From assembly GCA_903928685.1 (NCBI GenBank), contig CAIYRS010000061.1:1-34613 (forward strand): a stretch of 34,613 nucleotides of DNA, written 5' to 3'. Source of the DNA: an uncultured Methylococcaceae bacterium (lineage in GTDB: Bacteria > Pseudomonadota > Gammaproteobacteria > Methylococcales > Methylomonadaceae). The notes below the pieces were generated by a model. It did not search any database. It had not been told where the DNA came from and worked only from the letters and a program-made list of their open reading frames with translations. A program made the translations under genes and the position numbers. Of this stretch, positions 14,424-29,855 are shown piece by piece (positions within the stretch are counted from its first letter, which is position 1; every line of letters begins with the position of its first letter).

Positions 14424-16493
14424 ATGAATACGCTGCTGAAAAACGCTATTTGGATACTCGTGGCAATACTTGGCGCCGCTGCGGTTGGTGGCATTGCCAT
14501 CAATCGCGGGGAAAGCATCAACTCGCTGTGGTTTGTGGTCGCCGCATTGTGCGTATATTCCTTGGCTTACCGATTTTATGCCGCGTGGATTGCCGCGACG
14601 GTATTAACGGTCGATGCCACACGGGCAACGCCTGCCGAACGCCTTGAAAACGGACACGATTTTGCGCCAACCAACCGCTGGATTGTCTTCGGTCACCATT
14701 TTGCCGCCATTGCCGGCCCCGGGCCTTTAGTTGGCCCAACCTTAGCCGCACAATTTGGCTACTTGCCGGGGACTTTGTGGATATTAATTGGCTCGGTGCT
14801 AGGCGGTTGCGTACAAGACATGTCCATCCTATTTTTCTCCACCCGCCGCAATGGTCGCAGCATCGGGCAAATGGCGCGTGATGAATTAGGACCATTGGGC
14901 GGCACAGCGGCGTTAATCGGCACGTTTGCCATCATGATAATTTTGATCGCGGTGCTAAGCCTGATCGTGGTCAACGCCATGAAACACAGCCCTTGGGCCA
15001 CTTTCACCGTTTCCGCTACCATTCCTATCGCCATGTTTATTGGCATCTACATGCGTTACTTACGCCCCGGACAAGTAATGGAAGCGTCAGCTATCGGTGT
15101 CGCGTTGTTATTGCTATTCGTCGTCGCAGGCGGCTGGGTTGACCATAACGAAATGCTACGCGGCTGGTTTGACCACGATGGCTTAACGCTAGCCTGGGGC
15201 ATCATGCTGTATGGTTTGGCAGCGGCAATCCTGCCCGTCTGGTTGCTGTTAGCCCCGCGTGATTATCTATCCACTTATATGAAACTTGGCACGATTACCT
15301 TATTGGCAGTCGCCATCGTCATCTTGCAACCCAGCGTAAAAATGCCTGCGGTAACGCAATTTATTGACGGCACTGGCCCTATTTTTGGCGGTAAATTGTT
15401 CCCGTTTGTGTTCATCACCATTGCTTGCGGCGCTATCTCTGGCTTCCATGCGTTGATTGCCTCTGGCACTACGCCGAAATTATTAGCCAATGAACGCGAC
15501 ATCCGCATGATTGGTTATGGCGGCATGGCCTTAGAATCCATGGTTGCCATCATGGCGATGGTGGCGGCGACGGTATTAGATCCTGGCGTGTTCTTCGCCA
15601 TCAACAGCCCCGCAGGTATCGTCGGCAAAGAAGCGGTTGATGCTGTGGCAAAAATTTCTGGCTGGGGATTTCCGGTCACAGTCGAGCAAATGCGCTTATT
15701 GGCGGAACAAATGGGTGAAACCACTTTGTTTGCCCGAACTGGCGGCGCACCATCACTGGCGGTTGGTATGGCAAGCATCTTCGGCAGTGCCTTTGGCAAC
15801 AGCTTGCTGGCGTTGTGGTATCACTTTGCCATTATGTTCGAAGCCATTTTTATCCTTACCACGCTAGACGCAGGCACACGCGTAGGCCGCTTTATGTTGC
15901 AAGATATGCTCGGTAATATCTGGCCGAAAATGGCAGAAACCTCTTGGCTGCCATCAATGTTGCTCAGCAGCTGCTTGGTAGTCGCTGGCTGGGGGTATTT
16001 TTTGTACATCGGCGTGATCGATCCGAATGGCGGGGTGAATATCCTCTGGCCTTTATTTGGCATGGCTAACCAAATGTTGGCGGCGATTGCTTTGTGTGTA
16101 GGCACAGGCATTTTGGTGAAATCCGATAAAATCCGTTATGTCGGCGTAACCGCTTTGCCGTTATTGTGGCTGATTATTGTCACCACCACGGCAGCGTGGC
16201 AAAAACTCACCAGCAGCGATTTGCGTATTGGCTTTATGGCTGCTGCCGAAGATTTACAAGCAAAATTGGCATCCGGCGCATTGCCCGCAGAAAAAGCTGC
16301 CGTAGCACCGCAACTGATTTTCAACCTGCATTTAGATGCACTGTTAACGCTGTTTTTTATCGGCATTTTGTGGCTGATCGTGTTTGATATGCTGCGGGTT
16401 TGCGTGCGCTATCTAAACGGTCAGCCAGTGCTGCCATTAACAGAAACCCCGCACAGCCCTAGCCGTTTCGTTGAAGATTGGGTGCGTGACTAA
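14424..16493 (+). CDS. cstA: CstA-family carbon-starvation transporter
   Basis: A 689-residue membrane protein with about sixteen hydrophobic helices. The family blocks G-P-G-P-L-V-G-P-T-L-A-A-Q-F-G-Y-L-P-G (about 97-115), D-M-S-I-L-F-F-S-T-R-R-N-G-R-S and S-G-F-H-A-L-I-A-S-G-T-T-P-K are present, and length equals E. coli CstA (about 700). CstA and BtsT import peptides or pyruvate under carbon limitation. A YbdD-type gene follows with a one-base overlap (TAATG), the same pairing as in E. coli cstA-ybdD. A strong ribosome-binding site is not evident. The dense inverted repeats upstream may affect its leader. Confidence 0.93.
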   Translation: MNTLLKNAIWILVAILGAAAVGGIAINRGESINSLWFVVAALCVYSLAYRFYAAWIAATVLTVDATRATPAERLENGHDFAPTNRWIVFGHHFAAIAGPGPLVGPTLAAQFGYLPGTLWILIGSVLGGCVQDMSILFFSTRRNGRSIGQMARDELGPLGGTAALIGTFAIMIILIAVLSLIVVNAMKHSPWATFTVSATIPIAMFIGIYMRYLRPGQVMEASAIGVALLLLFVVAGGWVDHNEMLRGWFDHDGLTLAWGIMLYGLAAAILPVWLLLAPRDYLSTYMKLGTITLLAVAIVILQPSVKMPAVTQFIDGTGPIFGGKLFPFVFITIACGAISGFHALIASGTTPKLLANERDIRMIGYGGMALESMVAIMAMVAATVLDPGVFFAINSPAGIVGKEAVDAVAKISGWGFPVTVEQMRLLAEQMGETTLFARTGGAPSLAVGMASIFGSAFGNSLLALWYHFAIMFEAIFILTTLDAGTRVGRFMLQDMLGNIWPKMAETSWLPSMLLSSCLVVAGWGYFLYIGVIDPNGGVNILWPLFGMANQMLAAIALCVGTGILVKSDKIRYVGVTALPLLWLIIVTTTAAWQKLTSSDLRIGFMAAAEDLQAKLASGALPAEKAAVAPQLIFNLHLDALLTLFFIGILWLIVFDMLRVCVRYLNGQPVLPLTETPHSPSRFVEDWVRD

Positions 16494-16678
16494 TGCTTGC
16501 TAAACTTACAACCCTATGGCAAGGTTTACGGCAGTTATCGGGCGATGATGCCTATGAACGTTATTTACATCATTACGCCCAGCATCATGCCGACAGTGGT
16601 GAAGCACCGTTAACCAAAGCGGCTTTTTTCAAGCAATGGCAAGATAAAAAATGGCAAGGCATAAACCGCTGTTGCTAA
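16493..16678 (+). CDS. ybdD: YbdD/YjiX family small protein
   Basis: A 61-residue soluble protein with the family pattern L-x-G-D-D-A-Y-E-R-Y-L-x-H-Y near residue 20, then P-L-T-x-x-A-F-F (slightly varied from the usual L-S-x-x-E-F-F) and a K-x-W-x-x-I-N-R-C-C tail. It is translationally coupled to cstA. In E. coli the small partner (YbdD, or YjiX for BtsT) is needed for normal transporter activity. The length is normal. Confidence 0.88.
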   Translation: MLAKLTTLWQGLRQLSGDDAYERYLHHYAQHHADSGEAPLTKAAFFKQWQDKKWQGINRCC

Positions 16679-17263: not shown

Positions 17264-17311
17264 TTAAGGAACTGCTGAACTTGTCGAAGGCTTTGTTCAG
17301 CGATTCCTTAA
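17264..17311. terminator. Inverted repeat between convergent genes, likely bidirectional terminator
   Basis: Arms TTAAGGAACTGCTGAAC (17264-17280) and GTTCAGCGATTCCTTAA (17295-17311) pair with two mismatches around a 14-base loop with TTGTCGAAGG. It lies between the protease gene and the oppositely directed membrane-protein gene, whose stop codon is inside the right arm. The hairpin could end both transcripts. The core also resembles the dispersed 'GAACTTGTCGAAGG' repeats seen in proteobacterial genomes. Confidence 0.55.
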
Positions 17312-17820
17312 TTCACATCGACATTATTGTTGTTAGTAAAACGCTTTCTGGCACGGATCAGAGAAGCGATTACCGCTACCAACAAGGCCAATAGCGACAT
17401 TTCCAGCATCAAAAAAGCGGCAATCTTAAAATAGGCGAAATACGGGTGGACAAAGCGCACTAACCAACCACCCGCTTCATCGGCAATAGCAGATACATAG
17501 ACGATGCTGTTTAGCCAAATTTTCAGCCTTACCGAAAACTCGGTCATCAGCATCAAATGCGTTAAGGTGACCGCCAACATCCCCATTGAAAATAAGTGGA
17601 AATGCGAAACTTCCAACATGCCTTCATAACTGCGTGGCTGGGTAAATAGGGCTTCTGAACCCAGATAATAACCAACCACCGCATCCGGCGTTAATGCCAT
17701 CCGATGAAAAAACATCAGGCCATTACTAAGCCAAAGCAACAAGATGTACGCCAAGAACATCAGTACGACGGTATTTAACAAGGCCTTACGCTGCTGTTCA
17801 CCAGTAACAAAATAACGCAT
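17308..17820 (-). CDS. Four-helix, His-containing inner-membrane protein (partner of flavoprotein)
   Basis: I do not recognise a named family. The 170 residues carry four hydrophobic helices (about 13-40, 70-95, 100-120 and 125-160). Histidines lie at helix ends or within helices: F-F-H-R, V-S-H-F-H-L-F-S-M-G-M-L, T-L-T-H-L-M-L-M and F-V-H-P-Y-F. The spacing in the second helix (H, then 12-14 residues, H) could hold a heme or contact a quinone, as in small cytochrome b-like proteins. This is inference. It is the last gene of the minus-strand group, overlapping the FMN-binding protein gene by one base, so the two are likely to work together in electron transfer across the inner membrane. Confidence 0.6.
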   Translation of the reverse strand: MRYFVTGEQQRKALLNTVVLMFLAYILLLWLSNGLMFFHRMALTPDAVVGYYLGSEALFTQPRSYEGMLEVSHFHLFSMGMLAVTLTHLMLMTEFSVRLKIWLNSIVYVSAIADEAGGWLVRFVHPYFAYFKIAAFLMLEMSLLALLVAVIASLIRARKRFTNNNNVDVN

Positions 17821-18365
17821 TAGTGGGATTCCTGAGGTTTTATCATGATTTCGTACATAGCCATCACTTTACGGATGCTGGTTAATGCTGATCGGGTGCT
17901 GAGGGTTGCGCCGCTAATGCCGTCAACGCCTTGGGAGAAATCCATTGCCGCTAACGGACGCTTAAACAAACTGCTGTACCAATGTTCCGGTGGTTGGTAT
18001 TCCGGGGGCTCATGGAACGCCAAGGTGACTACATCTTGCAATTGCCCATCAGCGGACAAGACTATCATCAAGGTTTCTGGTTTAGTGCGGACGTTGTTGG
18101 TTTCAATCGCCACATATCGGTTGATTTTGTCTTGGGTTTTGCTGACATAAAAACTGAACAAACCCGATTCCAGCTTGGTTTTTGCCAGTGCTTGAATTTT
18201 GGCGATTTGTTCATCGTCAGGAAATAACGATAGCGTTTCCACTGGCGTGCCTTTACCAAAGGCCAATTCCATCGCTTCATTTTTGCTGTAAAAAATGGTG
18301 GCAAAACTGGGGGTAATGGTGGCTGCTAATACGCTAACTAGAAGTAGCTGGATTATAAATTTCAT
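17820..18365 (-). CDS. Periplasmic FMN-binding (covalently flavinylated) protein
   Basis: A 181-residue protein with a signal peptide (M1 to about 22, ending S-F-A) and a C-terminal FMN_bind domain. The flavinylation motif D-G-I-S-G-A-T-L-S-T (148-157) is complete; by analogy with NqrC and RnfG, T154 would carry FMN through a phosphoester made by an ApbE transferase. No apbE is in the window. The open frame extends 79 residues upstream, through repeats, with no family support; the ATG 18363-18365 begins a proper signal peptide. It is followed, with TAATG overlap, by the four-helix membrane protein and preceded by a porin. It should act in the periplasm as an electron carrier. Confidence 0.85.
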   Translation of the reverse strand: MKFIIQLLLVSVLAATITPSFATIFYSKNEAMELAFGKGTPVETLSLFPDDEQIAKIQALAKTKLESGLFSFYVSKTQDKINRYVAIETNNVRTKPETLMIVLSADGQLQDVVTLAFHEPPEYQPPEHWYSSLFKRPLAAMDFSQGVDGISGATLSTRSALTSIRKVMAMYEIMIKPQESH

Positions 18366-18526
18366 GGGGTTAGTCGCTGAAAACAGGCTTTTAAATGGAA
18401 AATCTTGACCGCGATAGCTGTCAATTGGTAATAAGCCTTCACTGACAAAAAAGCTTGTTGGTATTTTAACAAACACCAACAAGCCCGTCTGTTTTAGCAA
18501 AAGCATTTGATTGAATAGCTTGGATA

Positions 18527-18552
18527 GGAGTCCAAAACATGTTTTGGACTCC
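18527..18552. repeat. GGAGT palindrome, copy 2 (26-bp perfect)
   Basis: A perfect palindrome with arms GGAGTCCAAAACA and TGTTTTGGACTCC. The identical 26 bases occur again at 29869-29894. It lies in the 291-base gap between the porin and the FMN-binding protein gene, and could act as a processing or partial termination site that lowers expression of the distal genes. Confidence 0.8.
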
Positions 18553-18591
18553 AACCTTCGCAACGGATACACGAAGCTAGCGGTAATGCGA

Positions 18592-18624
18592 AGACCTTTC
18601 AAGTTTTAAAAACTTGAAAGGTCT
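18592..18624. repeat. 33-bp palindrome, AGACCTTTC family, copy 2
   Basis: Arms AGACCTTTCAAGTTTT and AAAACTTGAAAGGTCT form an almost perfect palindrome 33 bases past the porin stop codon. It is the counterpart of 804-836. The change of G to A in the left arm is matched by C to T in the right, so pairing is kept between copies. Confidence 0.8.
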
Positions 18625-18656
18625 GGATTGGGATAAAAACCACCCAAAACCAATGC

Positions 18657-20057
18657 TTAGAAAATAAAGCCAAAGCCTAAGTTGAAATCATCCGGCAAAT
18701 CGCCTTTTTTGGCGGTGAAATTGCGGTAATCGGCTTTTATGACCACGTTAGGTATGGGTTTGTATTGCAGACCAAACTGGTAGATTTTCCGGTCTTGGCT
18801 AAGATCATCGGCAAAGCCCGTTGGCGCGCTGGCAATGGTATCCATTTGCTCATAACGGAAAAATGGCGCTAGGTATTGCAAAGTATCAGGTATCAACAGC
18901 GGCAACACGTCGTAACCAACTTCTGAATACCAGCCATAGTTTTCTGAACCAATCGTTTGTCCAGCGGCAGCACTGAGTATATCGGCATCGCCAATATGTC
19001 CCCATGAACCCAAAGTACGGAATTCCCAGCCATGGTATTTTACTTGCACGTGGCCTTCATAAAGCTGAGTGAATACATTAGCTTTACGTCCTCCAAAGTC
19101 GGTGTTTTGTCCAGAGTTGCCGACATACGCCGAGCCGCCTAGCGTCACGCCCGGCAATTGCTTTGGTGTGTAATCCATTCTTGCCACATAGCCAAAATCT
19201 TCGGCTTTGGCTTGGCTTCCGCCGCCACGGCCTTCGCTAATACCACTAGAGGCAAATCCTGAGGCATTTAATCCATTGACCAAATAAGTGGTGTAGGTCA
19301 AGCTAGGTGTGATTTGCCCAAACAAGCCCACACCCATTTCCCGCCATGTACTGGGGATAATTACTTGTTCCACCATCGGACGGTTATTACCAAAATAGAA
19401 TGGCGGCTCATGAATTTGGTTGATAAAACCCATAGGCATTAACACCAAACCCGCACGGACATTGGCGATAGGGTCAATGAAAAAATCTAAAGCAGCAAAT
19501 TCAACCGATACTTCACCCTTTTCTTCTGAACCTTCACCCGTGGTGGCGTGTTCAAATTCCAGCTCACTGTTGAACAAAATGCGGTCAGAAAATTTATAAC
19601 CGGCATATAAAACAATGCGTTTTAAATCAATCGTATCTTTTTTGTCGCCTTTATCACCCGTAACCGCTTGATAACTGCCCTCACCGTAACCGCCAATAGA
19701 CAAGCCTTTACCAACTTGGTAAACCTTGGATGCCGCCGGCCCTAAACCATAGGCACTTTTGTATTTGGCTTCATCAGGAATGGTTAGATTTGTCCGTAGC
19801 TTTTCCACTTCTTGGCTTAACACATCGGTTTTGCGCTCTAAAGTTTTCACTGCTGCTGGATTAGCGACAACTGGCGCTGCACTAGTGGTAGTTGCTGCGG
19901 GTGCAGTTGCCAATTTGGCTTTCATGGCATCAATTTGTTGCTGCTGGGCTTCGATGATTTTCCACATGTCTTCCATCGTCTTTGGCTTCTCTAAAGCAAT
20001 AGCCGAGGTACTGATTGCAAACAACGTAGAAAATAAAATGGGGTTTTTTAGTTTCAT
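18657..20057 (-). CDS. Outer-membrane beta-barrel porin (OprO/OprP-like)
   Basis: A 466-residue exported protein. The signal peptide ends near S-A-I-A (about 22). A trimerising coiled-coil segment follows (30-95, with M-W-K-I-I-E-A-Q-Q-Q-Q-I and a second heptad run before L-R-T-N), then alternating aromatic beta strands to a C-terminal phenylalanine (F-N-L-G-F-G-F-I-F), the signal recognised by the BAM machinery. The layout resembles phosphate-selective porins O/P, but the substrate is not shown by sequence. A good promoter with a Fur-box-like palindrome lies just upstream. The downstream genes encode a periplasmic flavoprotein and a membrane protein, which suggests uptake of a metal or metal complex followed by reduction. 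Confidence 0.85.
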   Translation of the reverse strand: MKLKNPILFSTLFAISTSAIALEKPKTMEDMWKIIEAQQQQIDAMKAKLATAPAATTTSAAPVVANPAAVKTLERKTDVLSQEVEKLRTNLTIPDEAKYKSAYGLGPAASKVYQVGKGLSIGGYGEGSYQAVTGDKGDKKDTIDLKRIVLYAGYKFSDRILFNSELEFEHATTGEGSEEKGEVSVEFAALDFFIDPIANVRAGLVLMPMGFINQIHEPPFYFGNNRPMVEQVIIPSTWREMGVGLFGQITPSLTYTTYLVNGLNASGFASSGISEGRGGGSQAKAEDFGYVARMDYTPKQLPGVTLGGSAYVGNSGQNTDFGGRKANVFTQLYEGHVQVKYHGWEFRTLGSWGHIGDADILSAAAGQTIGSENYGWYSEVGYDVLPLLIPDTLQYLAPFFRYEQMDTIASAPTGFADDLSQDRKIYQFGLQYKPIPNVVIKADYRNFTAKKGDLPDDFNLGFGFIF

Positions 20058-20091
20058 TGATAATAACTCTCATTTAGCTTCTGGTGTAAGG

Positions 20092-20133
20092 ATTATAATT
20101 GACCTCAAACCAAATGCAAACGATTCTTATTTG
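20092..20133 (-). promoter_or_regulatory. Porin promoter with Fur-box-like palindrome over the -35
   Basis: On the minus strand a -35 box TTTGCA (20115-20120) and a perfect -10 box TATAAT (20092-20097) are spaced by 17 bases. The -35 sits inside a 23-bp imperfect palindrome (20111-20133; plus strand CAAATGCAAAC, then GATTCTTATTTG). It matches 20 of 23 positions of the CAAATGAGAAC / GATTCTCATTTG type of Fur site known from proteobacteria. Occlusion of the -35 by Fe-Fur would repress the porin and probably the flavoprotein genes when iron is plentiful. The comparison was made by eye. Confidence 0.65.
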
Positions 20134-20325: not shown

Positions 20326-21090
20326 TTAACAACCAACCTGACCTGTTAATATTTTACTGGCGACAGTTTCTGTGCTGCCGTTACAAAAAGAATAGCTGCC
20401 ATTGCCATTATCGTAAACGCTATACGCTGTTGGGCCACTGCCAGTATACGAATACGAAACAACACTTCCTGTACCTGAGCCTGAAATACTCCAAGTGCCG
20501 ACATCAGAGGTTTTATCAACTGGATCATTAGCGCCTTTTTTCCAATCGGTTAACGTACCGCCGCTTTTATGAAATTCCTGAGCCGCCCAATTGCCACTGC
20601 TACCGACACAAACAGTGTTGCCTGTTAACAAACTGCTTAAAGTCACTGTGGAAGTCGAGCCTTTCACCGTCTCAGTTACTTTCGGCGCCGTCGCACTAGA
20701 GCCATTAACATCAATATTTTTTACATCACCAGCATTACTACTGGTGAAAAGTATATTGAGATTGCCATCAATGCCTCCAGAACTCCAGCCACTCAACTTG
20801 CCGGAGTAATTTCCACCCGTCCCTTTACCTGAAGTCGCGCCATCCACCAAATTGACAAACGCTGCCGCGACTTGTGCAGCCGAAAGCGAAGTCGAGCCAG
20901 TGAATGTTAACCCGCCCACGGTAACCGAAGCCTTATTCGATAAAGTGGTAGAACCAAAATTAACGCTATTAACTTCAAATACCACAGTACCAGCGGCCTG
21001 AATCTGCTTAGTACCCGGACAAGCCGCCATCACCTCACCAATACCTGCCAGCCCCGCTAACAAGCTAATAAAAATCACACGTTTCTTCAT
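20326..21090 (-). CDS. Secreted beta-rich protein with adhesin-like repeat domain
   Basis: A 254-residue exported protein. A signal peptide ends V-M-A-A (about 22). The first half resembles domains of large bacterial surface proteins: V-T-V-G-G-L-T-F-T-G-S-T-S-L-S-A-A-Q-V-A (59-78 region), A-A-F-V-N-L and a Gly/Ser/Thr-rich strand pattern. The second half holds W-A-A-Q-E-F-H and S-Y-S-F-C-N-G. Four cysteines in the mature part could form two disulfides. The ATG 21088-21090 (after GGGG) is preferred to a TTG four codons earlier. I do not recognise a defined function; a surface or matrix role is a guess. It is divergent from the VanZ/Wzy-like gene. Confidence 0.7.
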   Translation of the reverse strand: MKKRVIFISLLAGLAGIGEVMAACPGTKQIQAAGTVVFEVNSVNFGSTTLSNKASVTVGGLTFTGSTSLSAAQVAAAFVNLVDGATSGKGTGGNYSGKLSGWSSGGIDGNLNILFTSSNAGDVKNIDVNGSSATAPKVTETVKGSTSTVTLSSLLTGNTVCVGSSGNWAAQEFHKSGGTLTDWKKGANDPVDKTSDVGTWSISGSGTGSVVSYSYTGSGPTAYSVYDNGNGSYSFCNGSTETVASKILTGQVGC

Positions 21091-21182
21091 TACTATCCCC
21101 AATACTCTGATTAAAAAAATTCTGTTCTAGCCCTAGCATCATCTATGCTATTGGCATCCCTACTACTTATCCGGCGACCAAA

Positions 21183-25444: not shown

Positions 25445-26182
25445 ATGATAAAAAAAATCCTATCTTCAGCATTACTAGCCGCTGCGGCTAGCATGAGTGT
25501 TGCTGCAAACGCGGCCTACACTACATATTTCGGTGAGGACTTGGGTCTAGGCGAAGCTAAATTCTTGAATTCAAGGCCAAATTCAAATGCGGCTAACGCC
25601 AGTTTTTTGTCGCGCCTAACCAACCCAGGCGTTGCAAATTTTGAAAATTTTGCGGATAACACCGCCAATCCTAGCATCAACTTTGGAAGCGCTGGCATAA
25701 CCGCCACATTATCAGGAGGCAGCGTTGCCAGCACCGCCAATGGAACAACCAATGGTGTCGGTCGCTATGGAATTTCTGGGGACCCAGACGGTAACGGTAG
25801 AGATAGTTATTATGAAACCAGTTCTGCTTTAACGTTGACATTTTCCAGCCCCGTGGGGGCATTTGGCTTCTATGGAATTGATATTGGTGACTTCAATGGT
25901 CAAGTTACCGTAACCACGGTCGGTGGCCTAAGTAAACTTTTCAATGTTGGAAACACGCTTAATGGAGCAGGCGGAGGTGTGTTGTTCTGGGGCTTAATTT
26001 CTGACACCGCCACATTTACCAGCATTTCATTTGGCAACACAGCCTCTGGAACCGATTTTTTTGGTTTTGACAATTTTACTATTGGCTCACTTACCCAAAT
26101 TACACCAACAACAGTACCGGAGCCAAGCACCTTCATTTTGATGTTGGCTGCACTGCATTTTTTTCGCAAACGTAAAATTTAA
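25445..26182 (+). CDS. PEP-CTERM exported protein (exosortase substrate)
   Basis: A 245-residue protein with an N-terminal signal peptide (cleavage likely after A-N-A-A, about 24) and a C-terminal sorting signal: V-P-E-P-S-T-F, a hydrophobic helix and R-K-R-K-I. Such proteins are processed by an exosortase and sent to the surface or extracellular matrix. The middle (about 60-215) is rich in Gly, Ser, Thr and Asn with a beta-sandwich look: N-F-E-N-F near 70, G-F-Y-G-I-D-I-G-D-F-N-G-Q and D-F-F-G-F-D-N-F-T-I-G. GGAGA precedes the ATG. The gene stands alone between two long non-coding stretches; no exosortase gene is in the window. Confidence 0.9.
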   Translation: MIKKILSSALLAAAASMSVAANAAYTTYFGEDLGLGEAKFLNSRPNSNAANASFLSRLTNPGVANFENFADNTANPSINFGSAGITATLSGGSVASTANGTTNGVGRYGISGDPDGNGRDSYYETSSALTLTFSSPVGAFGFYGIDIGDFNGQVTVTTVGGLSKLFNVGNTLNGAGGGVLFWGLISDTATFTSISFGNTASGTDFFGFDNFTIGSLTQITPTTVPEPSTFILMLAALHFFRKRKI

Positions 26183-27043: not shown

Positions 27044-27079
27044 TGTTACAGATAAAACAATAATGTTATATTTAAAACA
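27044..27079. promoter_or_regulatory. Two tandem TGTT-N8-AACA sites before chrB, candidate operator
   Basis: TGTTACAGATAAAACA (27044-27059) and TGTTATATTTAAAACA (27064-27079) are direct repeats 20 bases apart, and each is itself an inverted pair TGTT...AACA. The second touches the chrB ATG. Two half-turn-spaced sites on one face of the helix at the 5' end of a regulator gene suggest autoregulation by ChrB. This is by pattern only. A Shine-Dalgarno sequence is not evident for chrB. Confidence 0.4.
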
Positions 27080-28014
27080 TGACTTATCTAATCCTAATCA
27101 TTTCCCTTACCACCGAAAACACCAGCATCCGTATGCGGGTTTGGCGGGCGGTTAAAGCTTCAGGCGCGGCGGTGCTGCGGGATGGCGTGTATTTATTGCC
27201 TAATCAGGAAACTTGCCTTAACGCCTTCACCGCCATCAGCGCGGACTTACAAAACCACGGCGGCATTACCCAATTGCTGGGTTGCGAAGCGCTTGATGGC
27301 GCGGATTTCAAGCCTTTATTTGACCGCACCCCGGCTTATACGGCGTTATTGGCAGAGCTTGAGGCTTTCAGTAAACAGCTAGACCACAGCCAACAAAGCC
27401 AAAAAACTTTACGCAAATTACAAAAACAATTTGCCGCCATAACAGAAAGCGATTTTTTCCCTGGCGAGGCGCAAAATCAAGTGGCGTCGGCTATGCAAGC
27501 ACTGGAAGCAAAATTAAAACAACTGCTTTCCCCAGACGAACCTCAGCCGCAAGATAACGCCATCAGCCAACTTGCCATCGCCGATTTCCAAGGCAAACAC
27601 TGGGCAACCCGGCAACGCCCGTGGGTAGACCGCTTGGCTTCGGCATGGCTGATCCGTCGGTTTATTGACCCTAACGCAGAATTTATTTGGCTAGCCGCGA
27701 TCAGCGATTGCCCTGCACACGCCTTGGGTTTTGATTTTGACGGCGCGCGCTTTAGTCATAGCGGCAACAAAGTGACGTTTGAAGTCTTGCTACAAAGCTT
27801 TTCGCTAACGCAACCCGGCTTACCCGCACTGGCGGGGCTGGTGCATTTTCTGGATGTCGGCGGTATCCAACCCGCTGAAGCCATCGGTGTTGAAGCGGTA
27901 TTAGCTGGATTACGCAATTCCCTAAATGACGACCAACAGTTACTGGATGCCGCATGTATGGTTTTCGACAGTTTATTGACCGCATTTGCGACAGGAGTAA
28001 AACCCCATGAATAA
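27079..28014 (+). CDS. chrB: ChrB chromate-resistance regulator
   Basis: A 311-residue two-part protein. The N-terminal part has M-R-V-W-R-A-V-K-A-S-G-A-A-V-L-R-D-G-V-Y (19-38), the ChrB signature. The C-terminal ChrB_C domain starts at about 172 with W-A-T-R-Q-R-P-W-V-D-R-L-A-S-A-W-L-I-R-R and includes H-F-L-D-V-G-G. In Ochrobactrum and others ChrB senses chromate and regulates chrA. It overlaps chrA by 8 bases. The spacer between domains (about 115-165) is helical and charged. A second ChrB_C protein is encoded after chrA. Confidence 0.9.
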   Translation: MTYLILIISLTTENTSIRMRVWRAVKASGAAVLRDGVYLLPNQETCLNAFTAISADLQNHGGITQLLGCEALDGADFKPLFDRTPAYTALLAELEAFSKQLDHSQQSQKTLRKLQKQFAAITESDFFPGEAQNQVASAMQALEAKLKQLLSPDEPQPQDNAISQLAIADFQGKHWATRQRPWVDRLASAWLIRRFIDPNAEFIWLAAISDCPAHALGFDFDGARFSHSGNKVTFEVLLQSFSLTQPGLPALAGLVHFLDVGGIQPAEAIGVEAVLAGLRNSLNDDQQLLDAACMVFDSLLTAFATGVKPHE

Positions 28015-29383
28015 CCCAGACCCGACTAACTTAAGCAAACCCGAACCCGTCAGTTTTGCCGAAGCCTTCCGTTTTTGGCTGAAATTAGGCTTTATCAGTT
28101 TTGGTGGCCCAGCCGGACAAATCGCCATCATGCACCAAGAGTTGGTGGAAAACCGCCGCTGGCTTTCGGAAAAACGCTTTTTACATGCGCTTAATTACTG
28201 CATGTTATTGCCTGGCCCAGAAGCGCAACAATTGGCGATTTACATCGGCTGGCTGATACACAAAACCTGGGGCGGCATTGTCGCTGGCAGCTTGTTCGTG
28301 TTGCCGTCTTTATTGATATTGATTTTGTTATCGTGGGTTTACATTGCTTTTGGCGATGTCACTTGGGTGGCAGGCTTGTTTTACGGCATTAAACCCGCCG
28401 TCACCGCCATCGTTCTGCAAGCCGCGCACCGCATCGGCTCACGGGCGTTAAAAAACAAATTATTGTGGCTGCTGGCAGGCTTATCGTTTCTGGCAATTTT
28501 TGGCTTACATGCGCCATTTCCAGCGATTGTTGCCATCGCCGCCTTAATTGGCGCAATCGGCGGACGCTTCGCCCCAGATTACTTCAAAGCAGGCGGCGGT
28601 CATGGCAAAGCCGATAAAACCTTCGGTCCCGCGTTGTTGGATGACGATAATGCCGCCCTGCCCCACACCCAGTTCCGTTGGTCACGGCTGTTGATTTTGT
28701 GTGCAGTCGGCATCGCGTTATGGATAGTGCCGATGGCAGCGTTGACCTTGCAATACGGTTGGGATCACGCCCTTACCCAGATGGGCTGGTTTTTTACCAA
28801 AGCCGCGTTGATGACCTTTGGCGGTGCTTACGCGGTGTTGCCATACGTTTACCAAGGCGCGGTGGAACATTACCACTGGTTACTGCCGCAACAGATGATT
28901 GACGGCCTGGCCTTAGGCGAAACCACGCCAGGGCCATTAATTATGGTGGTGACGTTTGTCGGCTTTGTCGCTGGCTGGACGCAAGCGATCTTCGGCCCAG
29001 ACCAACTGGCTTTGGCGGGCGCGGTGGCGGCAACGCTGGTGACTTACTTCACCTTCCTGCCCAGCTTTCTGTTTATTTTGGCAGGCGGCCCCTTAGTGGA
29101 ATCCACCCACGGCAACCTAAAATTTACCGCGCCATTAACCGCGATAACCGCCGCCGTGGTTGGTGTTATCTTAAATCTAGCATTGTTTTTTGCCTGGCAT
29201 GTGCTGTGGCCCACAGGCTTTGAAGGCAATTTCGACTGGCTAGCCGCCGTTATCGGCTTGTTGGCAATGCTAGCCTTGTTCCGCTACAAAATCAGCGTAA
29301 TTCGCGTCATCGCCGCCGCCAGCATGATTGGCTTATTGGCGGTATTTGTTAAGCCTTGGTTGTTATCGTTAGGCATTTTTTAA
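28007..29383 (+). CDS. chrA: Chromate efflux transporter
   Basis: A 458-residue membrane protein of the CHR superfamily with two homologous halves. The first opens with F-R-F-W-L-K-L-G-F-I-S-F-G-G-P-A-G-Q-I-A (about 22-41) and L-L-P-G-P-E-A-Q-Q-L-A (64-74). The second has F-F-T-K-A-A-L-M-T-F-G-G-A-Y-A and L-G-E-T-T-P-G-P-L-I-M, the repeat of the G-P motif. About ten to twelve helices. It expels chromate with the proton or membrane gradient. It is preceded by GGAG inside chrB and followed by the ChrB_C gene after 16 bases. Confidence 0.93.
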   Translation: MNNPDPTNLSKPEPVSFAEAFRFWLKLGFISFGGPAGQIAIMHQELVENRRWLSEKRFLHALNYCMLLPGPEAQQLAIYIGWLIHKTWGGIVAGSLFVLPSLLILILLSWVYIAFGDVTWVAGLFYGIKPAVTAIVLQAAHRIGSRALKNKLLWLLAGLSFLAIFGLHAPFPAIVAIAALIGAIGGRFAPDYFKAGGGHGKADKTFGPALLDDDNAALPHTQFRWSRLLILCAVGIALWIVPMAALTLQYGWDHALTQMGWFFTKAALMTFGGAYAVLPYVYQGAVEHYHWLLPQQMIDGLALGETTPGPLIMVVTFVGFVAGWTQAIFGPDQLALAGAVAATLVTYFTFLPSFLFILAGGPLVESTHGNLKFTAPLTAITAAVVGVILNLALFFAWHVLWPTGFEGNFDWLAAVIGLLAMLALFRYKISVIRVIAAASMIGLLAVFVKPWLLSLGIF

Positions 29384-29399
29384 TCACCAGAGACCCACC

Positions 29400-29855
29400 A
29401 TGCAATGGATTACCCGCGAACGCCCAAAAATTGACCGCATCGCCTGCCCGTGGCTGATTGCCCGTTTTATTGATACCGAGGCAGAGTTCCTTTATGTGCC
29501 TGCTCAAGAAGTACTGGAAGTTGCGGCGGCAACAGGCGCAATCCCCTACGATATTCCCGATGTGGAGCTATCGCATGTCGGTGAGTTATGCAGCTTTGAT
29601 GCTTTCTTGAAAAAATACGCTTTAGATACGCCAGCTTTACAGCAACTGGCGGCAATTGTGCGCGGTGCCGATACCTCAAATTTGGCATTGACTCCGCAAT
29701 CGGCGGGTTTGTATGCGATTTCCTTAGGCTTATCGCATAATTTTGCTGATGACCATGCGCTATTGCAGCAAGGTATGGTGATGTATGACGCGCTGTACGC
29801 GTGGTGTGAACATTGCCAATCGGAAAGCCATAACTGGCCGCCGAAGTTGTCGTAA
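29400..29855 (+). CDS. Stand-alone ChrB C-terminal domain protein
   Basis: A 151-residue protein made of the ChrB_C domain alone. W-I-T-R-E-R-P-K-I-D-R-I-A-C-P-W-L-I-A-R (3-22) aligns directly with the C-terminal half of the upstream ChrB. It lacks the N-terminal regulatory part. The domain is thought to bind metal or act as a redox/chromate-related enzyme, but its activity is not settled. The gene closes the chrB-chrA operon and probably arose as a paralogue of the ChrB tail. Confidence 0.87.
   Translation: MQWITRERPKIDRIACPWLIARFIDTEAEFLYVPAQEVLEVAAATGAIPYDIPDVELSHVGELCSFDAFLKKYALDTPALQQLAAIVRGADTSNLALTPQSAGLYAISLGLSHNFADDHALLQQGMVMYDALYAWCEHCQSESHNWPPKLS

Follow-up and report, generated by a model that had tools for sequence, protein, structure and literature searches.

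Five classes of transmembrane proteins associated with flavinylation have been listed by Meheust and colleagues, several of which are linked to iron (PMC8238504), and the described system nearest in function to the locus treated here is HiuABC of Caulobacter crescentus (PMC13001220). This locus lies in a contig of an uncultured Methylococcaceae bacterium (CAIYRS010000061.1 of assembly GCA_903928685.1), whose whole length of 34,613 nucleotides is referred to below as the window. Its minus strand encodes a porin-like outer-membrane barrel, a secreted FMN_bind protein (here the FMN protein) and a 170-residue four-helix membrane protein with conserved histidines, encoded at 17308-17820 and given the working name "mem4" (Table 1). 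The three minus-strand genes, the promoter TTTGCA-17-TATAAT, the C-terminal phenylalanine of the porin and the one-base overlap between the FMN gene and mem4 were all located where the initial annotation had placed them. There is in our estimate an even chance that they form a co-inherited envelope redox module of the Methylococcales which serves iron uptake, with electrons passing from quinol via mem4 and the flavoprotein to ferric iron.

HiuABC resembles this module in comprising three Fur-regulated genes and in combining an outer-membrane importer with an inner-membrane redox protein for ferric complexes. It differs in that the importer is a TonB-dependent receptor, the membrane protein belongs to the PepSY type and no FMN_bind protein is among the three described products; moreover, its substrate has been shown, whereas iron is here the proposed substrate (PMC13001220). 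The PepSY-like flavinylation systems, of which Shewanella SO1188-1190 is a Fur-linked case, are likewise described as Fur-linked operons, pair a redox protein of the membrane with an extracytosolic partner and are read as iron reduction systems, but their membrane protein is of the PepSY type and their flavin domain usually DUF2271 (PMC8238504, PMC2667191, PMC2535785, PMC12442407), whereas mem4 matches no PepSY model. SO1188-1190 was followed as a lead and, its membrane protein being described as PepSY-type, is an analogue. We take SO1189 to be a DUF2271-type flavin protein. FTR1-type permeases and P19/FTR1 clusters with FMN_bind proteins share the link to iron (PMC8238504), and a mem4 paralogue adjoins a gene for an FTR1-Rieske fusion; FTR1 is, however, found only at the paralogue loci (2 of 138) and not at the module. 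NqrC and RnfG (PDB 4u9s, 8rb9 and others) have the fold predicted for the FMN domain, but no Nqr or Rnf family was detected among the seven window proteins scanned, save for an RnfG match of the FMN protein below the cut-off. A description of the three-gene set was not found in the literature searched, a search whose reach excluded most subscription journals.

The window comes from a methanotroph of the order Methylococcales: a retrieval of relatives by name, covering the best 80 of 275, includes Methylovulum, Methylobacter, Crenothrix and Methyloglobulus, with Methylobacter luteus, Methylovulum miyakonense and Methyloglobulus morosus as culturable carriers. One line of evidence for a functional unit is the distribution of the three genes across 101 genomes, comprising the genome of the window and 100 relatives. 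At thresholds of E 1e-50 for mem4 and E 1e-15 for the FMN protein, the two occur in an identical set of 61 genomes, and a close porin (E below 1e-100) is present in 62. The initial annotation had suggested looking for the genes together in relatives, and indeed all but one of these 61 genomes, 60 in total, hold all three. The remaining one (G016) lacks the porin, its contig beginning 546 bases before the FMN match, while two genomes hold a porin either alone on a 3.7-kb contig (G054) or together with a mem4 fragment (G045). At E 1e-30 mem4 gains two genomes, both without an FMN match (G050, with a paralogue only, and G045, with the fragment), and at E 0.001 it reaches 70 genomes, the extra ones holding weak relatives. 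A barrel at E 1e-30 is found in 80 genomes, the other 18 being more distant than the close porins.

Gene order is similarly well preserved. Removing loci with identical mem4 DNA or none from the 138 loci left 113 distinct mem4 loci, 111 of which have an FMN gene called beside mem4, with a one-base overlap in 91 of the 111; the two exceptions are L172, where an FMN relative is detected by tblastn, and L072, which holds a mem4 paralogue. A porin start was called in 93 of the 113 loci, on the same strand in 92 and on the opposite strand in one; at L065 the porin and the FMN-mem4 pair diverge. Among the 20 loci without a called porin, nine hold pieces of one, and five of the remaining 11 have less than 1.9 kb of upstream sequence. 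In a class sample of 369 genomes, the five mem4 matches at E 1e-15 belong to two Methylococcales and to three genomes of another gammaproteobacterial family (f129), whereas a phylum sample of 398 genomes gave a match at this threshold in the window's own genome only, and a comparison of mem4 with plasmids gave none. The three f129 genomes show the same order of porin, FMN protein and mem4, with identities of 37-42%, 25-35% and 52-54%, respectively. The order is thus kept across the Methylococcales and the grouping is real and old; the three proteins almost certainly function jointly.

A second line of evidence concerns a Fur-like box at the porin. As the initial annotation had it, the −35 hexamer of the porin promoter lies within a Fur-like element, the box AAATAAGAATCGTTTGCATTT overlapping this hexamer; that annotation gave 20 of 23 matching bases for a Fur-box form which it did not name. 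In the window alone the box is indistinguishable from chance: 14 positions of its 23-mer are self-complementary, its 19-mer matches the textbook sequence GATAATGATAATCATTATC at 11/19 positions, and the best textbook match in the upstream region is a different 19-mer (13/19), a score which 16% of shuffled sequences attain. The number of promoter-like matches in the region is likewise at chance level (7 found against 6.3 expected). The box is nevertheless taken as real because it is conserved at orthologous porin upstreams. The textbook 19-mer had been tried as sole detector and proved too weak (22/90 upstreams at P 0.05 or less); instead, 87 porin upstreams served to train a motif independently of any Fur model, and 89 upstreams of at least 150 bases were scored with it leave-one-out. 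The learned motif, AAATAAGAATCATTTGCATTT, lies about 75 bases 5' of the porin start. It scores at least 10 bits in 82/89 porin upstreams and falls within −100 to −55 in 80/89, so that the initial annotation survives its own refuting condition of orthologous promoters without a Fur site. Among 674 control upstreams of other, mechanically picked open reading frames (ORFs) at the same loci 16 reach 10 bits; some of these hits are at neighbours that diverge and could be one and the same site. The mean match of the motif to the textbook 19-mer is 11.9/19 at the site against 5.3 elsewhere and exceeds that of all 500 permuted consensus sequences (maximum 11.15). Near-textbook boxes of up to 16/19 occur in the diverged relatives L058 and L069, and weak Fur-like matches (6 to 12 bits) are present upstream of the f129 porins.

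The box also accompanies porins which stand apart from the FMN-mem4 pair (4/4 genomes; L225, L227, L228 and L229) and the lone porin of G054 (L223); the lone porin of G045 (L224), whose start is uncertain, has none. At L065, the divergent porin and pair may have one common box. Furthermore, similar boxes are found at iron genes of relatives, namely 28 bases 5' of the ATG of FeoA, which is followed by FeoB, in G035 (L199), and amid siderophore-type genes in G046 (L191), where a lysine/ornithine monooxygenase was confirmed. In the window's own genome the module-box pattern has eight matches as compared with none in the control. The four whose surroundings were read are the module itself, L182, L185 and L201; the other matches are L189, L193, L195 and L198. 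Taken as a prediction from these upstream comparisons, Fur very probably controls the porin.

Of 92 same-strand porin-FMN gaps in relatives, 30 are no longer than 120 bases and 69 no longer than 300, and co-transcription of all three genes is plausible in many of these relatives. In the window, the gap is 291 bases long and includes two palindromic stretches (18527-18624) with 80 match rows in the own genome, often on both strands of one place; neither these repeats nor the hairpin discussed below had been mentioned in the initial annotation. Here, co-transcription appears doubtful.

The FMN protein carries a signal-like N-terminal stretch, as read from its sequence, and matches FMN_bind (PF04205 in Pfam) with 26.8 bits against a cut-off of 22. 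Its motif DGISGAT (within DGISGATLS) agrees with the intact D-x-x-S-G-A-T of a secreted FMN_bind protein described in the initial annotation, and in its HEPPEYQPP stretch LAFHEP, EY and P are invariant. The AlphaFold model has a mean pLDDT of 90.4, and its best structural neighbours are NqrC and RnfG, with E values that come down to 2.8e-3 but in no case to 0.001; a sequence search of the PDB gave three matches, all at E 0.18 or worse. Across 40 family sequences GAT is invariant, D is replaced by Q or E in 12 and S/T by A in nine, so that [ST]GAT is found in 31, AGAT in nine and the full D-x-x-[ST]-G-A-T in 22. Judging from the motif, the window protein likely bears a covalent flavin, which is uncertain for part of the family. 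ApbE genes are present in 12/12 genomes searched; the window's own genome has two such genes, away from the module.

More distant relatives of the FMN protein point to how mem4 fits into this picture. At E 1e-10 they occur in 6 of 349 phylum genomes, the own genome included. The five others (L218-L222, from other Gammaproteobacteria) show a one-strand row of a barrel, an FMN protein, ApbE (confirmed in 5/5) and a small membrane protein, with one short ORF interposed in L222. Two of the barrels (L219, L220) match DUF6662, and that of L218 matches Porin_O_P. Of the three small membrane proteins scanned, that of L218 matches DUF4405 over the cut-off and those of L219 and L221 have no Pfam match. 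DUF4405 proteins are described as binding haem b and accompanying ApbE (PMC11334425). The L218-L222 rows, which we group with the ApbE-DUF4405 systems, resemble the module in their barrel, FMN_bind relative and small membrane protein, but ApbE lies inside the cluster and the small membrane protein is DUF4405-like (L218) or Pfam-less (L219 and L221). In the module, mem4 thus stands where these rows have such a small membrane protein.

Mem4 itself matches no Pfam or NCBIfam family. No Pfam match below E 0.4 and no NCBIfam match up to E 1 was obtained, the sequence models of the flavinylation-associated membrane classes (NapH-, MsrQ-, PepSY-, DsbD- and NQR/RNF-like, and DUF4405) gave no match, a PDB sequence search returned none, and the best hit of a fold search (E 0.069) was not convincing. 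The four-helix protein with histidines proposed in the initial annotation is recovered in the model (mean pLDDT 83.7), where a short helix accompanies four long ones, and in the alignment, where H73, H75 and H88 are among nine residues identical in 41/41 sequences, the window included (Table 1); H39 and H125, considered together with these three as possible ligands of a b-type haem, are kept in 37/41 and 32/41, respectively. Based on the charges at the termini, both ends would lie inside, with E70, H73, H75, E115, R122 and K132 near the periplasm. A paralogue with 45% identity in G050 and G043 starts 13 bases after the gene for a fusion of FTR1 (115 bits) and a Rieske domain (42 bits) and is followed by a LysR regulator. 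Both loci have identical FTR1 genes; G043 carries the paralogue and an ordinary module, G050 the paralogue without one. This link to iron is independent of the Fur-like box. FTR1-like matches were also seen in 46 plasmid records, and of the two examined one has no mem4-like annotation and the other is unannotated.

Weaker matches connect mem4 to cytochromes. Distant relatives, which are ORFs of 252-386 residues with hmmsearch E values from 4e-12 to 4e-8, show two separate stretches of alignment to the mem4 profile, a weak first one (3-8 bits) and a second of 28-41 bits. Those read have a CxxCH between helix 1 and the SHIHLF (HxH) helix in 4/4 cases. Since these relatives hold a c-type haem insert which mem4 lacks, mem4 looks like a cytochrome-bearing membrane protein minus its haem-c segment. 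Further weak mem4 matches were observed in the genome survey, sometimes several per genome.

Taken together, the module may work as follows. Under low iron Fur would leave the box and the porin would be made, admitting small ferric complexes to the periplasm. Mem4 would take electrons from the quinol pool and hand them to the secreted FMN protein, which would carry a flavin attached by the cell's general ApbE and would in turn reduce Fe(III) to Fe(II) for entry via a ferrous transporter such as FeoB. In this scheme we infer the electron direction, the quinol donor, the iron substrate, the iron control of the FMN-mem4 pair and the part of FeoB. Methanotroph iron uptake is described as poorly characterised, and in Methylomonas DH-1 Feo is reported as the likely main iron route, with Fe(III) required for growth on methanol (PMC13274454). 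The module is a concrete candidate for the reductive step of methanotroph iron uptake; if so, mem4 would extend flavin-based electron transfer in the envelope by an undescribed membrane family, and its cytochrome kin suggest a possible route for exchanging haem for flavin when iron is short. A bolder version is possible, although we lean against it: mem4 might found a further transmembrane carrier class for extracytosolic flavoproteins, as kin of cytochromes without haem c and as an iron-free substitute passing electrons to a separate flavin protein, and might together with the Fur-controlled porin form the ferric reductase step lacking in methanotroph Feo uptake.

A number of observations weigh against the iron uptake reading. 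A strong terminator-like hairpin lies between the palindromic stretches and the FMN gene of the window and, under a loose rule, such hairpins occur in 25/71 gaps of 20-400 bases. Where the FMN-mem4 pair stands apart from the porin it has a box in 0/4 genomes (L047, L045, L131 and L059), and in a fifth genome with porin and pair apart (G084; L226 and L063) the box is weak on both sides. No evident iron gene stands beside the boxes L180 and L197 of relatives, and none adjoins the own-genome matches L182, L185 and L201; textbook boxes number three in the own genome against two in the control, and on visual inspection none adjoins an iron gene. A TonB receptor, a ferrous transporter and ApbE are all missing from the seven window proteins scanned. 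Part of the FMN family has lost D or [ST] of the flavinylation motif, and ApbE, which three genomes lacking the module likewise carry, is not specific to it. FTR1 is restricted to one locus type, the paralogue loci L072 and L078, the other 136 of the 138 loci examined being without it, and FTR1 systems generally oxidise iron, which could mean that electrons flow in the opposite direction. As the box goes with the porin and the hairpin divides the porin from the pair, it is only for the porin that such control is well supported. The iron-limitation module of the initial annotation consequently survives in part, backed by co-occurrence, the porin box and the paralogue beside FTR1-Rieske and weakened by the pair without its own box, by the hairpin in the gap and by the partial conservation of the flavinylation motif.

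The same observations feed the best of the alternatives, namely that only the porin is regulated by iron and that the FMN protein and mem4 are a separate, differently controlled, co-inherited electron-transfer pair with a broader task. The boxes at separate porins, their lack at separate pairs and the hairpin in the window all favour this arrangement, but it is unlikely in view of the single pair genome in 61 that lacks the porin, at a truncated contig, of the short gaps in a third of the same-strand loci and of the gene order common to f129. A reverse flow, in which electrons of a periplasmic donor enter quinone by way of the FMN protein and mem4 in a process coupled to FTR1-type oxidative uptake of iron, is less likely again. 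It could draw on the paralogue beside FTR1-Rieske and, in L078, on a gene of the multicopper-oxidase type which lies some 2.8 kb upstream on the far side of a transposase gene, but FTR1-Rieske is confined to the two loci mentioned, and published accounts of iron-linked clusters read the flavinylated partners as reductases (PMC8238504).

The two remaining alternatives retain the electron transfer and replace its purpose. Methanotrophs need copper for methane oxidation, and there is a slim chance that a metal other than iron, copper in particular, is the substrate, with the Fur-like site answering a mixed metal or redox signal. In Methylococcus capsulatus a gene cluster that responds to copper is indeed reported to have a putative Fur box in front of it (PMC4831470); against this stand the orthologous boxes of diverged relatives, with their close match to textbook Fur, and the FTR1 link of the mem4 paralogue. 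It is very improbable that the pair feeds periplasmic enzymes such as a di-haem peroxidase as an iron-sparing replacement of cytochromes since, despite the cytochromes among distant mem4 relatives and a CCP_MauG-type gene cluster in three arrangements at 14 of the 111 loci clustered, this gene is absent from the window locus and from the other 97 loci clustered, many of them ended by contig ends.

This accessory gene, of the di-haem peroxidase/MauG type (PF03150 in the one member scanned), was found at L040, L051, L061, L065, L068, L084, L094, L107, L115, L118, L132, L135, L143 and L147. It follows the porin in eight cases and mem4 in five and is divergent from the porin in one (L068); in L065, where the porin is turned round, it follows the porin on the porin's own strand, and in L143 it is in two pieces. 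Because identities span 27 to 85%, the gene may have arrived several times.

Table 1. Positions of the features of the locus in the window, and of mem4 relatives at other loci
Feature	Position	Strand	Remarks
Porin-like outer-membrane barrel, 466 aa	18657..20057	-	C-terminal Phe; coiled-coil-like N-terminal region (read from sequence)
Secreted FMN_bind protein, 181 aa	17820..18365	-	ATG at 18365, stop ends 17820; PF04205 over cut-off; shares one base with mem4
mem4, four-helix membrane protein, 170 aa	17308..17820	-	Invariant E70, H73, H75, H88, K100, E115, W119, R122, K132
Sigma-70-like promoter TTTGCA-17-TATAAT	20092..20120	-	10/12 matches
Fur-like box	20112..20132	-	Begins 75 bases 5' of porin start; overlaps −35 hexamer
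Palindromic repeat	18592..18624	none	Many matches in genome
Second palindromic repeat	18527..18552	none	Many matches in genome
Intrinsic-terminator-like hairpin in porin-FMN gap	18451..18486	-	Outside the gap stretches that match elsewhere in the genome
FTR1-Rieske, mem4 paralogue, LysR regulator	L072 1631-4316; L078 3690-6375		
Distant mem4 relatives	L074 692-1849; L075 1928-2863; L076 3-827; L077 1749-2504		One CxxCH and SHIHLF helix; no Pfam over cut-off

The porin of the window matches no Pfam family over the cut-off, TonB plug and barrel domains included. Some of the 24 porin relatives scanned (set A3, 24 of 36 porins) match barrel families weakly; the TonB barrel model reaches E 0.00069 or weaker in two of the 24, and the plug model is not among the listed matches. 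Elsewhere in the window, a CstA-type transporter gene is followed by a small Sel_put gene (Pfam; 14424-16678), and a secreted protein without a Pfam match is encoded at 20326-21102. At 27079-29855, two genes which we take to be ChrB-like flank what is presumably a chromate-transporter-like gene, and a second secreted protein at 25445-26182 ends in a tail which appears to us PEP-CTERM-like.

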